From: Kribbella rubisoli
GTDB lineage: Bacteria; Actinomycetota; Actinomycetes; Propionibacteriales; Kribbellaceae
NCBI RefSeq assembly: GCF_004217145.1
Contig: NZ_SHKR01000013.1
Span: 124,001 to 188,000, forward strand
DNA length: 64,000 nucleotides
Direction of reading: 5' to 3'
Positions within the stretch are counted from its first letter, which is position 1, and every line of letters begins with the position of its first letter. The notes under the pieces were generated by a model, which saw only the letters and a list, made by a program, of their open reading frames with translations, was not told the DNA's origin and ran no database searches. Shown one piece after another: positions 42,749 through 61,462 of this stretch. Both the position numbers and the translations under genes were made by a program.

Positions 42749-44073
42749 CCCCAGAGGTCGTGGCCGGCCGCGACTGCCTTGGCAAGGATGGATTTCACCG
42801 GCTTCTTGAGGGCAGACGCCGCGGCGGCCACGTCGTCGTACTCCGGCTGCACGTTGACCACCTGACCGCCGTACCGCGCGATCTTGACGTGGATGCGTTG
42901 ACCTTCGACGTCGACCGTGGCGAACTCCCGATCCGCGGCATGCTTGCGGATGCCGAACTCGCGCAGGCCGATCGCGGAGGTCTCGGACAGGATCACGGCC
43001 CGGACCATCTCGGCGTTCGCACTGCCGACGAGGACCGACAGGGTGTGCGCCGGCCGGCCCTTCTTCATCAGGATCGGGGTCAGCCAGGCGTCCGCGGCTC
43101 CCGCCTCCATAAGCCGCGCCAGGACCTGCGGCCAGATCCGCGGGTCGAGATCGTCGACGTTGGTCTCGTAGACGAGCTCCGTGGCCGAACTCTCGGTCGA
43201 TTCGCCGAGTACGACGCGCAGAATGTTCGGCACCTCGACCGGGTCACGCCCGCCGGCGCCCACGCCGGTCTGCTGGATCCGCATCGGCGGCAGCGTGCCG
43301 AACTCGTCCGCGAGGCTGGCCAGCAGGGCCGCCCCGGTCGGCGTCGTCATCTCGTACGGCGCTGTGCCGCCGGTAACCGGTGCTTGTGCCTCGGACAGGA
43401 TCGCGAGGACCGCGGGACCGGGGATCGGGATCCCGCCGTGCTGCCCGCGAACCTGCCGCCCGCCACCCAGCACAACGGTCGACACCACAATCCGGTCGAT
43501 ATCCAGCGACACGGACGCCGCAGCTACGCCGACGATGTCCGCGATCGCATCCAGCGCGCCGACCTCGTGGAAGTGCACGGTGTCCGGCTCCACCCCGTGA
43601 GCCGCCGCCTCAGCGCGGGCAAGTCGCGCGAAGGTGTCGAGAGCCCGAGTCCGGACGGCGTCGTTGAGCGCCGCCTCCTCGAGCAGCCGCCGAACATCAG
43701 CCCACGCCCGCGTCGGGCCCGAGTGCACATGGGTTGCCTCGTGGCCGTGTCCGTGACCTGCTTCATCACCGGTGCCGTGGCGGTGCCCATGGCCGGCTTC
43801 GTCACCGCTGTCGTGGCTGTGGCCGTGGCCTGCTGCATGGCCGTGGCCGGCGTCCGGGGTGTTCTCCGGGTGGGGCTCGCCGTTGACTTCCACGGTGGCT
43901 TTGGTGGCCGCGATCTGGTGGCGGGCAGTCTGGCCGACCGTGACCGAGAGGGACGGGTCTACGGCGGCCACCGCGGCGTTGATGGCCGAGACGTCGGCCC
44001 CGGCGGCGATGAACGCACCCAGGAGCATGTCGCCGGACGCGCCGGCCGAGCAGTCGAGCCAAGCGATGCGCAT
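42745..44073 (-). CDS. larC: LarC nickel-pincer cofactor cyclometallase, His-rich
   Basis: 442 residues from ATG 44073 (MRIAWLDCSAGASGDMLLGA). LarC inserts nickel into the pincer cofactor with CTP. It has the conserved VHFHEVGALDAIADIVGVA, VVLGGGRQVRGQHGGIPIPGPA and TELVYETNVDDLDP blocks. A His-rich stretch (about residues 75-118, roughly a dozen His in GHGH and SHD units) is a nickel store. In some bacteria larC needs a programmed frameshift; here it is one continuous frame. It overlaps larB by one base (TGATG). Confidence 0.94.
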   Translation of the reverse strand: MRIAWLDCSAGASGDMLLGAFIAAGADVSAINAAVAAVDPSLSVTVGQTARHQIAATKATVEVNGEPHPENTPDAGHGHAAGHGHSHDSGDEAGHGHRHGTGDEAGHGHGHEATHVHSGPTRAWADVRRLLEEAALNDAVRTRALDTFARLARAEAAAHGVEPDTVHFHEVGALDAIADIVGVAAASVSLDIDRIVVSTVVLGGGRQVRGQHGGIPIPGPAVLAILSEAQAPVTGGTAPYEMTTPTGAALLASLADEFGTLPPMRIQQTGVGAGGRDPVEVPNILRVVLGESTESSATELVYETNVDDLDPRIWPQVLARLMEAGAADAWLTPILMKKGRPAHTLSVLVGSANAEMVRAVILSETSAIGLREFGIRKHAADREFATVDVEGQRIHVKIARYGGQVVNVQPEYDDVAAAASALKKPVKSILAKAVAAGHDLWG

Positions 44074-57331: not shown

Positions 57332-58360
57332 GTGGTGGATGCGTTTGATCTGGAGCATCACGGTGATCTAGAGGTCGGCGAGGGTCTCGTCGACCTCGCT
57401 GTCAACGTTCGTGCGGGCACTCCGCCGCCCTGGCTGGTCGACGCGATCACGGCGAGCCTGACGGAGCTCGCGGCGTACCCACGTCCTGGGGCTGCGGTCA
57501 ACGCGGTCGCGCGGCGCCATGGCGTGTCGCCGGATCGGGTGCTGCTCACTGCGGGCGCTGCGGAGGCGTTCGTGCTGATCGCGCGGGCCTTCCGGCCACG
57601 GCATCCGGTCGTCGTCCATCCTCAATTCACCGAGCCCGAGGCGGCGCTGCGCTCGGCCGGGCATCTGGTCGACCGGGTGATCCTGCGGCCCGAGGACGGG
57701 TTCGTGCTGGACCCGGCCGCCGTACCGCGGGATGCCGACCTGGTCGTCATCGGCAACCCGACCAACCCGACCTCAGTGCTGCACCCGGCCGACTCGCTGC
57801 GTGAACTGGCGCGGCCCGACCGCATCCTGGTTGTCGACGAGGCGTTCATGGACGCCGTACCGGGTGAGCCCGAGTCGCTCGCCTGCGCGTCGATCCCGGG
57901 GCTCGTGGTGGTGCGCAGTCTGACCAAGACCTGGGGACTTGCCGGGCTGCGGGTCGGATATGTCCTTGCGGCGCCGAGTTTGATCGAACAATTGTCAGCC
58001 GTTCAACCTCAGTGGCCGGTGTCCACTCCTGCTCTCGCAGCGGCAATTGCCTGCAGCAACGAGCGTGCCGTGGCGGAAGCGGCACAGGCCGCGCTGGACA
58101 TTTCCCGGCAGCGTGTCCACCTGCTTGACAAGCTCGGAACGACGCATGGCCTTTCGACGTACGGCGTGGCGTCGGCGCCGTTCGTTCTCGTGCACGTTCG
58201 CGGCGCCTCGGAACTGCGGGAATCCCTGCGTGCACAGGGGTTTGCGGTCCGTCGCGGGGACACGTTTCCCGGGCTCGGGCCGGACTGGTTGCGGATCGCC
58301 GTACGACCGGAGGATGTCACCGACGGGTTCGTGAAGGTACTCGCGGATCTGCTTCGCTGA
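57332..58360 (+). CDS. cobC: CobC-like PLP-dependent aminotransferase (Rv2231c type)
   Basis: 342 residues, GTG start. Fold type I: GEGLVDLAVNVRAGTPPPWL, LLTAGAAEAFVLIARAF, LVVIGNPTNPTSVLHPA, VDEAFMDAVP and the PLP Lys in VVRSLTKTWGLAGLRVGYVL. This N-terminal DLAVNVR-x-GTPP is typical of the actinobacterial CobC/Rv2231c group. It may decarboxylate threonine phosphate for the cobalamin side chain, or act on another phosphoamino acid. No other cobalamin gene is adjacent. Confidence 0.82.
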   Translation: MVDAFDLEHHGDLEVGEGLVDLAVNVRAGTPPPWLVDAITASLTELAAYPRPGAAVNAVARRHGVSPDRVLLTAGAAEAFVLIARAFRPRHPVVVHPQFTEPEAALRSAGHLVDRVILRPEDGFVLDPAAVPRDADLVVIGNPTNPTSVLHPADSLRELARPDRILVVDEAFMDAVPGEPESLACASIPGLVVVRSLTKTWGLAGLRVGYVLAAPSLIEQLSAVQPQWPVSTPALAAAIACSNERAVAEAAQAALDISRQRVHLLDKLGTTHGLSTYGVASAPFVLVHVRGASELRESLRAQGFAVRRGDTFPGLGPDWLRIAVRPEDVTDGFVKVLADLLR

Positions 58361-58440
58361 ACTGATCCGGTACCCGCTGCTCAATCGAGTTGGCGCTGTA
58401 ACGCTGGAGGGGTTTAGCGGAGCTCCACTTTGCGCACAAG

Positions 58441-58487
58441 ATGGCCAGGGTGCCCCATTGATGATGTCCGGGCATCTTTCTGGCCAT
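58441..58487 (+). promoter_or_regulatory. nested hairpin in the leader of the repeat-protein gene
   Basis: Outer arms atggccag/ctggccat pair perfectly and inner arms ggtgccc/gggcatc pair with one G-U. It ends about six bases before the aagggag ribosome site and 20 before the ATG at 58507. A fold this close to the ribosome site could control translation of the whole cassette. Confidence 0.6.
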
Positions 58488-58506
58488 TCGCGAAGGGAGC
58501 AGCACA

Positions 58507-59118
58507 ATGGGTCTCAGCGACGACGACATGAACACCTCGTCCGAAGGTGGCGAAGGCTTGGCCGACGGGGGTGCCAACGTCGGCGGCACCGATGGTGGAG
58601 CCGACGGCGGCGCGGGCGGCAACACGTCCGGCGGGTACGGCGACAGTTCGTCCTCCGACGGCGGCGCTGACGGCGGTGCCGATGGTGGCACCGGGGAGGG
58701 GCCGGCTGACGGCGGTGCCTCGCAGGGCGCGCAGGACGGTGGCGCCGACGGCGGTGCAGGCGACGGCGCGGGCGGCGGCTCAGGTAACTACGGCGAAGGC
58801 ACCGCAGACGGCGGCGCCAACGAAGGCGCAAGCGACGGCGGAGCCGATGGCGGCGCGAACGAGGGTGGAAGCGACGACGGCGCCGATGGTGGAGCCGACG
58901 GCGGCGCGAGCGGCGGTGCGGGCGGCAGCTCCGAAGGTCTGGCCGACGGTGGCGCTTCGCAGGGCGGGCAGGACGGCGGCGCAGATGGCGCTGCCGGTGG
59001 CGAAGGCACTGCGGACGGCGGCGCAAACCCAAGCGGCTCCGACGGTGGCGCAGACGGTGGCGCAGATGGCGGTGCCGGCAGCGGCGAAGGCGGCGGCGGG
59101 AACTCCGGAAGCTGGTGA
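58507..59118 (+). CDS. acidic Asp-Gly-Gly-Ala repeat protein, candidate modified substrate peptide
   Basis: 203 residues after aagggag. Leader-like residues 1-14 (MGLSDDDMNTSSEG) precede a region almost wholly of DGGA units (19 copies), arranged as about five larger repeats of the form GEGxADGGAxxGxxDGGADGGA, for example near residues 15-36, 63-84, 96-117, 142-159 and 165-190. There is no Lys, Arg, His, Cys, Ile or Phe; the only Trp is the last residue. Four-base overlap with the downstream oxygenase (GTGA). It is an extreme low-complexity protein, not a known family; a repeat substrate for hydroxylation is inferred from the operon. Confidence 0.8.
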   Translation: MGLSDDDMNTSSEGGEGLADGGANVGGTDGGADGGAGGNTSGGYGDSSSSDGGADGGADGGTGEGPADGGASQGAQDGGADGGAGDGAGGGSGNYGEGTADGGANEGASDGGADGGANEGGSDDGADGGADGGASGGAGGSSEGLADGGASQGGQDGGADGAAGGEGTADGGANPSGSDGGADGGADGGAGSGEGGGGNSGSW

Positions 59119-60506
59119 CCCCCATGCCGGACGCCGGGCCCGACCCCACCCCCGCGAAGCCAGTGAACCCGTTGAACCCGGCGGACCCAGTGAGCCAGGT
59201 GAACCCGGGGAGCCAGGTGAGCCCGGTGGACCGCGTGGACCCGGTGAGACCGCGGCGGCGGGCTGGCGGGTGGGCGCGGGACGGGTTGCTGGAGGAGCGC
59301 CCGGCGCTTCGGCGTTGTGTGGCGGGGGATTTGGAGGAGTTCGCCAGCTTCTACTGGGGTGCGCGGGCGTTGCTGTCGCGCGGGCCGGATCTGCCTGCGC
59401 CGTATGACGATCTGTTCAGCTTGGAGGCTGTGGACGAGTTGCTGTCTCGTCGCGGGCTGCGGACGCCGTTCTTGCGGATCGCGAAGAACGGGGCGGTTGT
59501 GGGGGACAGTCAATTCACCGGGCCGGCTGGTGTGGGTGCGGAGATCGCTGACCAAGTGCGGGACGACAAGGTGGCGGCGCTGTTCGCCAGCGGGCACACC
59601 GTCGTACTGCAGGCACTGCACCGGACCTGGCCCGCCTTGGTCGACTTCTCGACTCAGCTGTCTGCGGACGCCGGGCATCCGGTGCAGATCAACGCGTACA
59701 TCACTCCTGCCGAGTCGCAGGGGTTCTCGGCGCACTACGACGTACACGACGTCTTCGTACTGCAAGTGGCCGGCGAGAAGCACTGGACCGTCCACGAGCC
59801 GGTGCACGCCGACCCACTGCGAAACCAACCGTGGACCGATCACACCCAAGCAGTCGCAGCGGCTGCGCGCGACAAGACTCCTGTGATCGACGAGGTACTG
59901 CGACCTGGCGACGCCCTGTATGTGCCCCGTGGATTCCTGCACTCCGCCAAAGCGCTGGGCGGGGTCAGCGCCCACCTCACCGTCGGAATGCACACTCTGA
60001 CCCGCTACCTCCTCGTGCAAGAGCTGGCCGCGCTAGCCGCCAACCAGGCAGCCCTACGCACCGCATTGCCCCTCGGCTTCGACCCCGGCGATCCGGAACA
60101 GCTCGCCGACATCCTGCCTGCAGTAGTCGAGCTCCTCACACAGGAGATCCAGTCCGCGACCCCAGACGCACTGGCTGCCCGACTACGCCGCCGTACCTGG
60201 TCCGGCAACCGCCCAGCACCACTCCCTCCCCTGGCACACGCGGCGTCGATCGCGTCCCTCTCCATAGGCACAACAGTCCGCCTACGCCCCGGCCTCCACT
60301 GCCGCGTAGTCCCCGGCGACCCAGTCATCCTGCAACTACCGGACCGCACAATCACGTTCCCACCATCCACCGAAGCGGCCCTCACCGAACTAACATCCGG
60401 CGCCGACTGCAAGGTAGGCAACCTCCCTAACCTGACCGACGCAGACCAGTTGGTCCTAGTCCGCCGCCTCCTCACAGAAGCCGTCCTAGTAGCAACCAAC
60501 AACTGA
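59115..60506 (+). CDS. JmjC/Cupin_4-type Fe(II)/2-oxoglutarate oxygenase
   Basis: 463 residues from GTG 59115 (ATG 59124 is possible). A Pro/Asx-rich N-terminal linker of short repeats (about 15-48) precedes the Cupin_4/ROXA-like domain. The iron ligands are H207-x-D209 (GFSAHYDVHDVF) and H287 (GGVSAHLTVG); GEKHWTVHEP and LYVPRGFLHSAKAL are family-typical. A C-terminal winged-helix-like region follows. Relatives hydroxylate residues in ribosomal proteins. Being translated together with the repeat protein, it may hydroxylate Asp in the repeats. That target is inference. Confidence 0.88.
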   Translation: MTPMPDAGPDPTPAKPVNPLNPADPVSQVNPGSQVSPVDRVDPVRPRRRAGGWARDGLLEERPALRRCVAGDLEEFASFYWGARALLSRGPDLPAPYDDLFSLEAVDELLSRRGLRTPFLRIAKNGAVVGDSQFTGPAGVGAEIADQVRDDKVAALFASGHTVVLQALHRTWPALVDFSTQLSADAGHPVQINAYITPAESQGFSAHYDVHDVFVLQVAGEKHWTVHEPVHADPLRNQPWTDHTQAVAAAARDKTPVIDEVLRPGDALYVPRGFLHSAKALGGVSAHLTVGMHTLTRYLLVQELAALAANQAALRTALPLGFDPGDPEQLADILPAVVELLTQEIQSATPDALAARLRRRTWSGNRPAPLPPLAHAASIASLSIGTTVRLRPGLHCRVVPGDPVILQLPDRTITFPPSTEAALTELTSGADCKVGNLPNLTDADQLVLVRRLLTEAVLVATNN

Positions 60507-60535
60507 CGTGAGCTGGTGTGGAAGTGTGAGGTGGC

Positions 60536-61462
60536 GTGGACGACGGGGACGCTCGATACCGACCGGAAACAGGCTGCGCAGCTCAAGCCGACCTCCGGCA
60601 TGACTCGCTGATCGCCACCGCCCCACCCGCCCAACGCTGGCTGCTCATCGAGTCCCACACCCCCTGGCCCCGCCAGGCCCTCACCGCCCTCGAACACGCC
60701 GTCGCCGACGTGGTTGCGCAGTTGTGTCGGGAGTTGGGGATTCGGCCGGTGCTGGTTCGACGGTACGGGCGGGTGGATCGGGCGCGGAGTCGACGGTGGG
60801 GATTGGTGGACTGCCGCCCGGGGCATGAAGAAGTTCGCTGGGGACCGCTGCCGACGGACGACCATCTGCTCGACGTACTGGCCGGCAAGGTTCCAGGCAC
60901 GATCAGCACCGCGCCCGTGTACCTCGTCTGCACACACGGCCGTCACGACGCGTGCTGCGCCGTACGAGGTCGTCCGGTCGCCGCGGCGCTCGCCTCTGCG
61001 TACCGGGAGCGCACGTGGGAATGCAGCCACATCGGCGGCGATCGCTTCGCGGCGAACGTCGTAGTACTCCCACACGGACTGTTCTACGGGCACGTCCCAT
61101 CGACCCGCGCCGTCGAACTCGCCAGGCAGTACGACAAGGGCCTCGTCGTACCCGATCTCCTCCGCGGATCAGGTGCCTTCACCCCAGCCGTCCAAGCCGC
61201 CCAACACTTCGCCCGCGAAGCCGGCCACTCACTAACCGTCGACAACCTCCTACCGCAGTCCGTCCAACAACTCCCCAACCACCACTACCGAATCCTCCTC
61301 AACACCACCGACCCTGCAACACCCTCGACCACAATTCCCACCGGATCGATCACCGTCGAGGTGTCAGCTCACCTCGACACCGTCGACGCCCGACTGACGT
61401 GCGCAGGCACCTCACCCGCAAAGATCCGCCGCTTCGAGCTCCACTCCCTCACCCCCGACTGA
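60536..61462 (+). CDS. sucrase/ferredoxin-like [2Fe-2S] protein
   Basis: 308 residues, GTG start with gagg five bases upstream, 29 bases after the oxygenase. Suc_Fer-like thioredoxin-fold ferredoxin: VCTHGRHDACCAVRGRPVA (C132, C140, C141) and TWECSHIGGDRFAANVVVLP (C163, H165), with PHGLFYGHV following. C14 (ETGCAAQ) is also characteristic. It likely carries a [2Fe-2S] cluster with Cys and perhaps His ligands and could donate electrons to the oxygenase or keep its iron reduced. Function in bacteria is not established. Confidence 0.9.
   Translation: MDDGDARYRPETGCAAQADLRHDSLIATAPPAQRWLLIESHTPWPRQALTALEHAVADVVAQLCRELGIRPVLVRRYGRVDRARSRRWGLVDCRPGHEEVRWGPLPTDDHLLDVLAGKVPGTISTAPVYLVCTHGRHDACCAVRGRPVAAALASAYRERTWECSHIGGDRFAANVVVLPHGLFYGHVPSTRAVELARQYDKGLVVPDLLRGSGAFTPAVQAAQHFAREAGHSLTVDNLLPQSVQQLPNHHYRILLNTTDPATPSTTIPTGSITVEVSAHLDTVDARLTCAGTSPAKIRRFELHSLTPD

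Follow-up and report, generated by a model that had tools for sequence, protein, structure and literature searches.

DurX and CanE, which belong to the duramycin and canucin pathways, are enzymes of Fe(II)/2-oxoglutarate (2OG) hydroxylation that act on Asp in the precursors of ribosomally synthesised and post-translationally modified peptides (RiPPs), and DurX requires a Gly next to this Asp (PMC10373908). BipG and BpmG, both JmjC enzymes, hydroxylate RiPP precursors (PMC12707348, PMC12257519). An animal precedent is FIH, which is reported to hydroxylate several residue types in repeats (PMC3569879). As for the family PF08007 (JmjC_2, also called Cupin_4), a survey reports that fish and algae have PF08007 proteins with a fused fold resembling the RiPP recognition element (RRE), and that bacterial PF08007 homologues stand in RiPP-like contexts (Bregman et al. 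2025; PMC12710340). The subject of this paper is a gene cassette of Kribbella rubisoli, in which an Asp-rich repeat protein, a JmjC_2 oxygenase and a ferredoxin-like protein are encoded one after another. It lies in a stretch of 64,000 nucleotides (the window), positions 124001-188000 of contig NZ_SHKR01000013.1 (G000:C3), in a genome of 8.64 Mb and 19 contigs. We lean towards the view that the repeat protein is a ribosomal precursor and the JmjC enzyme its dedicated modifier, carrying out repeated, leader-guided hydroxylation of Asp. The pair is probably a new family of modified ribosomal peptides, and no published description of it was found in the open-access literature searched, including by a text search for the repeat letters; the searches brought up only the papers cited here.

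Compared with DurX and CanE, the cassette would be alike in chemistry: Asp in a ribosomal precursor would be the target, and in the DGGA units each Asp directly precedes Gly. DurX and CanE work alongside other modifying enzymes and hydroxylate a single Asp of a peptide of the lanthipeptide or lasso type, whereas the cassette has one oxygenase, many repeat Asp residues and no other conserved modifying enzyme. The biphenomycin-type enzymes BipG, BpmG and PbsQ resemble it in that a JmjC or cupin oxygenase works on a RiPP precursor, but they hydroxylate ornithine after the steps of a multinuclear non-haem iron-dependent oxidative enzyme (MNIO) and an arginase, and both precursor and partners are different. 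The passage of the survey mentioned above names no precursor family and deals neither with this cassette nor with Asp repeats. With NO66/RIOX1, MINA/RIOX2 and YcfD the oxygenase shares the whole-chain fold and the conserved Fe and 2OG residues; it differs in being only 22-26% identical to NO66 and MINA and in having a small Asp-rich repeat gene alongside in nearly every genome.

In the window, the repeat-protein gene occupies 58507..59118 on the forward strand, with the ribosome-binding site GGGAG at 58495..58499 (+) and AAGGGAGCAGCA conserved in Kribbella; position 58441, where a sequence-only reading had let the cassette start, falls in the upstream region. The product has 203 residues, is free of Lys, Arg, His and Cys, and contains 19 DGGA words, exactly as that reading had counted. 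It opens with the acidic leader MGLSDDDMNTSS, after which cores that follow the pattern G-x-ADGG[AS]-x5-DGGADG[GST]A are repeated. The 19 words are written in 14 DNA spellings whose differences are confined to third codon positions, so that selection acts on the peptide, the open reading frame (ORF) is a gene, and no recent expansion of the DNA has taken place. A chance or non-coding repeat is ruled out by this pattern and by the conservation across families. The window protein and seven representatives from other lineages could be assigned to no Pfam or NCBIfam family at E values up to 10, the sole matches of repeat proteins in this range being weak low-complexity ones to ClfA/ClfB. The GTG start of the oxygenase gene at 59115 overlaps the end of the repeat gene at 59118 by the four bases GTGA that had been noticed from the sequence. 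This GTG/GTGA start is retained in most Kribbella; elsewhere the two genes mostly do not overlap but lie apart, by anything from a few bases to several tens.

One leader peptide is MALDDDDITTSG. Among 30 Kribbella loci the leader mostly reads MG(L/I)(N/S)DDDM(N/T)TSS, and the number of units and the length vary; the proteins of this genus are long and Gly-rich, with about 140-250 residues. Outside Kribbella the repeat protein often has 60-100 residues, that is, a leader of about 12-15 residues (for example MALDDDDITT) and 2-4 units; one such protein consists of MALDDDDMTTSGGGG followed by three units resembling EGPADGGSNPGGHDGGADGTA. In the wider phylum the leader mostly takes the form L(T/S/D)(D/E)(D/E)(D/E)I-x-T, and the number of units across orthologues ranges from 2 to >10. 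Within the DGGA clade the middle positions of the units vary freely between units and lineages and the ADGG and DGGADG parts stay, in a tally which, being made on pattern-selected units, shows the variable positions and does not prove fixed ones. The core differs by lineage (EGPADGGSNPGGHDGGADGTA; DADGTDGDGTDGTDGD; DADQGDSDSTQADPQGTD), and what is always kept across the phylum is Asp at short intervals, with Gly, Ala, Ser or Thr next to it. With a leader followed by several cores, these proteins are built, as far as can be read from them, like a multi-core RiPP precursor.

Further evidence comes from the distribution of the two genes. In a class-level sample of 395 genomes the oxygenase was called at E <= 1e-60 in 63, the window's included, and every Kribbella genome (38/38) has a match. 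A DGGA-type ORF stands immediately upstream at 58 of these 63 loci, as it does in all 30 Kribbella loci fetched and in Kribbella G010 (L122). At three other loci (L112, L113 and L115) the upstream ORF has the same leader and other Asp-rich repeats (DADTTDGG; DADQGDSDSTQADPQGTDPAGSD; DTDGTDSSDSDGTD), and at the remaining two (L106 and L108) it is acidic and has no repeats. In the wider phylum, where the oxygenases are 35-41% identical to the M. gordonae enzyme, an Asp-rich ORF lies upstream in 18/18 readable loci. Adjacency is near-obligate across the phylum, and the situation named as fatal to the idea, Cupin_4 genes never lying beside a repeat protein, does not obtain for this subfamily, although remoter PF08007 paralogues are without such a neighbour. 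With a precursor profile, 51 of the 395 genomes have both genes, 12 the oxygenase only, none the precursor only and 332 neither (Fisher p about 5e-53, a descriptive value since the genomes are phylogenetically non-independent); the 12 are genomes whose precursors are too divergent or too low-scoring for the profile. The pairing is far beyond chance, and because the two genes are almost never apart, the enzyme probably has the repeat protein as its own substrate.

A single natural case bears on the same point. In Kribbella G002 (L121) the oxygenase gene is fragmented by frame damage and by a deletion that extends into the ferredoxin gene. The neighbouring ORF is still open and retains the leader and the C-terminus GNSGSW, its DGGADGGA units are gone save for a remnant, Ala is down to 1%, and 11 Arg have been gained. 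This pattern would resemble relaxed constraint on the substrate of an enzyme. Kribbella G010, mentioned above, has an oxygenase ORF of about 488-501 residues with insertions relative to its relatives.

The oxygenase gene (59115..60506, +; in-frame ATG at 59124 as an alternative start) encodes a JmjC_2 protein with a PF08007 match at E 1e-27 and 96.6 bits (cut-off 22). Its AlphaFold2 model has a mean predicted local distance difference test (pLDDT) value of 93.1 and a predicted template modelling (pTM) score of 0.88. Residues 18-423 of the model align with NO66 at Z 29-30, a root-mean-square deviation of 5-5.5 A and 25% identity; Z is 28.9 for MINA and about 20 for YcfD. The enzyme is accordingly modelled with the JmjC, helical dimerisation and C-terminal winged-helix parts of a ribosomal oxygenase. 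H207, D209 and H287 had been proposed as metal ligands: the first two match the HxD pair of NO66, and the third is most likely H276 instead (numbering from the GTG), the histidine of PRGxxH that aligns with H405 of NO66, while H287 is a separately conserved His of an 'HLT' motif. The alignment offset reproduces the ligand numbers of NO66 exactly. Across 49 homologues there is no variation in any of these four residues, nor in N193, Y195 and K222, which belong to the co-substrate site. The window enzyme also carries an N-terminal extension (PVNPLNPADPVSQVNPGSQVSPVDRVDP) coded by a tandem repeat of about 27/18 base pairs (bp) at 59158-59252; it is missing from other Kribbella, e.g., L031, and is probably a neutral expansion.

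The C-terminal winged-helix domain (60198..60503, +) is RRE-like and a candidate leader-binding domain. Modelled in isolation (pLDDT 86), it finds as top matches the winged helix of RIOX proteins (MINA/NO66; Z 10-12.5), whose function has been described as unclear (PMC6182338). The next matches are RREs, namely PqqD (Z 7.6 over 79 residues), ThcOx (6.9), PbtF (6.8) and TbiB1 (6.7), followed by LynD (6.5), TigE (6.5), McbB (6.2), TruD (6.1) and a lasso B1 protein (6.0). A Z of 6-8 may arise by chance for common arrangements of this kind, but a single list in which RRE-bearing proteins are this numerous shows a pattern. In the clade without the LxDDD leader, the winged helix is about 11 residues shorter and is without the DLPGL loop and Arg371; this joint loss is consistent with docking of the leader at this place, but it is a single evolutionary event.

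Put together, the favoured mechanism would run as follows. The ribosomally made repeat protein would serve as the precursor and would be modified by the neighbouring JmjC oxygenase, which the leader may guide by docking to the winged helix; the core would then be hydroxylated repeatedly, presumably at Asp, to give a chain with an array of beta-hydroxyaspartate, a ligand set that would suit hard metal ions. Binding of metal by such arrays is plausible, and the ferredoxin-like protein would be an optional helper, which might keep the iron reduced or act on the product. The substrate-enzyme relation, already proposed in the sequence-only reading, is well supported by adjacency, co-occurrence, the leader, the RRE-like domain and the loss of repeats where the enzyme gene has been destroyed, and the RiPP-like product is the best among the products that had been offered.

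Several observations weigh against this mechanism. The evidence for the chemistry of the cassette consists of sequences and models, and in the closest structural relatives, NO66, MINA and YcfD, the residue hydroxylated is a His or an Arg in a ribosomal protein. The RRE-like resemblance is also common to ribosomal oxygenases that are not known to use leaders. The leader, conserved over much of the phylum, is absent from one large clade, whose proteins (MSEQNPEGPADGG...) are without LxDDD. In two genomes of one genus (g61; L106 and L108) the oxygenase has an intact active site and the acidic ORF upstream is without repeats. No DtxR/IdeR iron box stood out in the window or in 16 mycobacterial-type loci, where the best matches to the box consensus are at shuffled level. 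Finally, 15 neighbourhoods, taken about 9 kb to either side, have no peptidase or exporter in common, which is unusual for a released RiPP, though general proteases might remove the leader. With neither an iron box nor a shared exporter or peptidase, secretion is no more likely than a role inside the cell. Side by side with these points it can be recorded that the acidic ORFs of L106 and L108 share DDPEL[SA]G, and that their ferredoxin-like gene sits elsewhere in the genome.

Among the other explanations, the one that survives best accepts the repeat protein as substrate and assigns it another product: hydroxylation of Gly or Ala, desaturation, a cross-link, or aspartimide/isoAsp at Asp-Gly. 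All the linkage evidence applies to it equally, and within the DGGA clade Gly and Ala are conserved to the same degree as Asp. Asp-Gly is prone to succinimide formation, and macrocyclisation of a RiPP by a 2OG enzyme has reportedly been described, to go by the title of a paper cited in PMC12710340. It is rather unlikely all the same, for the places of Gly and Ala change from lineage to lineage (DADTTDGGD, DADQGDSDST, DAADADAADAD) and the spacing of Asp persists. It is improbable that the repeat protein stays unmodified and is a partner, acidic and disordered, for storing Fe(II) or Ca(II) or delivering it to the oxygenase, or else a regulator. The very acidic core, the lack of a common peptidase or exporter, and the two genomes where the ORF beside the enzyme is acidic and has no repeats would suit such a partner; the leader and multi-core architecture with its 2 to >10 units, the RRE-like domain in the enzyme, and the relatives in RiPP-like clusters would not. 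The idea of an ordinary ribosomal oxygenase that targets a ribosomal protein, with the repeat ORF as an unrelated passenger, could draw on the whole-chain fold match to NO66, MINA and YcfD, and is very improbable since the repeat gene was never found without this enzyme, adjoins it across many families, and is lacking beside the remoter PF08007 paralogues of the same genus (L116-L118). A secreted surface, ice-binding or structural polymer, of which the first two had been suggested from the sequence, and for which the long Gly-rich Kribbella versions might speak, is just as hard to credit, given an acidic, hydrophilic N-terminus without a signal peptide recognisable from the sequence, no exporter in common, and versions of 60-100 residues in many other families.

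The third gene (60536..61462, +) encodes a Suc_Fer-like protein, that is, a thioredoxin-like ferredoxin, which matches PF06999 at E 8.7e-23 and 81.8 bits (cut-off 34.9). Cys14, Cys132, Cys140/141, His165 and Asp169 are its conserved residues. The gene adjoins the oxygenase in 51/62 other class loci and in 16/20 distant ones; in 11/62 class loci (about 18%) it is not beside it, and three genomes keep the repeat/oxygenase pair without any PF06999 gene genome-wide. An obligatory partner is ruled out by these loci and genomes, and the protein, not being universal beside the pair, is accessory. Nor did its proposed role as an electron donor find support: its gene is absent beside the oxygenase in about 18% of the class loci, and the chemistry does not require a donor, for Fe(II)/2OG oxygenases draw their electrons from 2-oxoglutarate. 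Apd1 and Aim32 belong to the same Pfam family, and the CX8C spacing of C132/C141 and the invariant H165 in HxGG(D) are shared with them; the second His of their HX3H motif (PMC8482512) is, in contrast, Asp169 in nearly all members here. Membership of PF06999 therefore holds, and bis-His cluster ligation of the Apd1/Aim32 subtype is not supported by the residues present.

Upstream of the cassette, a strongly conserved element (TGTAAC...GGGGTTTAG...CACTTTGCGCAC; 58393..58443, +) recurs in 34 distinct upstream sequences from Kribbella and is a probable promoter region. In the corresponding region, several mycobacterial-type loci have GTTT-N~16-GG(C/T)AAC, which is reminiscent of stress promoters, possibly of the SigF/SigB type. 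An iron-responsive promoter found no support, the DtxR/IdeR matches being no better than shuffled. A wider conserved cluster was ruled out: only the three genes of the cassette recur among the 15 neighbourhoods, with the oxygenase and ferredoxin genes as the recurrent neighbours, in a survey by simple ORF calling from which 5/20 neighbourhoods were dropped since the caller had lost the oxygenase frame. The upstream neighbour in the window (57332-58360) is an Rv2231c-family CobC aminotransferase unrelated to the cassette, and a 36-bp tandem repeat of 2.8 copies lies at 43740-43838.

More remote relatives of the oxygenase occur on plasmids. Streptomyces-plasmid homologues of about 31% identity adjoin tiny hypothetical ORFs. 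On an S. clavuligerus plasmid (L173, NZ_CP065235.1) a protein of 48 residues, MDDKKTSLEPDEIEVIPPVSTPDFVIADNDPSDPPIAIADPDPFDPVI, is encoded at 2757-2903, immediately before the gene for a cupin of 31% identity; it combines a leader-like LEPDEIEVI with repeats rich in Asp (ADxDPxDP). Genes for an S9 peptidase and an ABC (ATP-binding cassette) transporter lie nearby, and the locus looks like a related RiPP cluster. Three other Streptomyces plasmids (L176, 2359-2490; L178, 2300-2437; L180, 2205-2351) encode peptides of 43-48 residues before a cupin-aldo/keto reductase pair, with a common GLL.G.R.I.AARSRA-like region and, in two of them, the ending DGGGTGRSDGND; these peptides are candidates for a second family of precursors of JmjC_2 enzymes. 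Near cyanobacterial homologues there are a 71-residue ORF that contains MSDEDIKSI as well as a GG motif (L179, 1137-1352, Dolichospermum plasmid) and a LanM lanthipeptide synthetase (L174, Pseudanabaena plasmid). To judge from the Streptomyces neighbourhoods, modification of RiPPs may be a more general task of PF08007 enzymes.

A more far-reaching proposal can be put forward only tentatively: ribosomally made polypeptides with long beta-hydroxyaspartate arrays would be found throughout the phylum, made by one ribosomal-oxygenase-like enzyme guided through its RRE-like winged helix and used inside the cell for binding or buffering metal, and the winged helix of RIOX proteins would itself be an RRE-type docking domain. 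In any event, the actinobacterial PF08007 enzymes, so far annotated merely as cupins, gain a concrete candidate substrate next door. If the favoured mechanism is true, there would be a widespread RiPP-like class whose core is unusually repetitive and almost purely acidic, together with a ready-made multi-site hydroxylase. The cassette also ties the winged helix of the ribosomal oxygenases to the leader-binding domains of RiPP enzymes.

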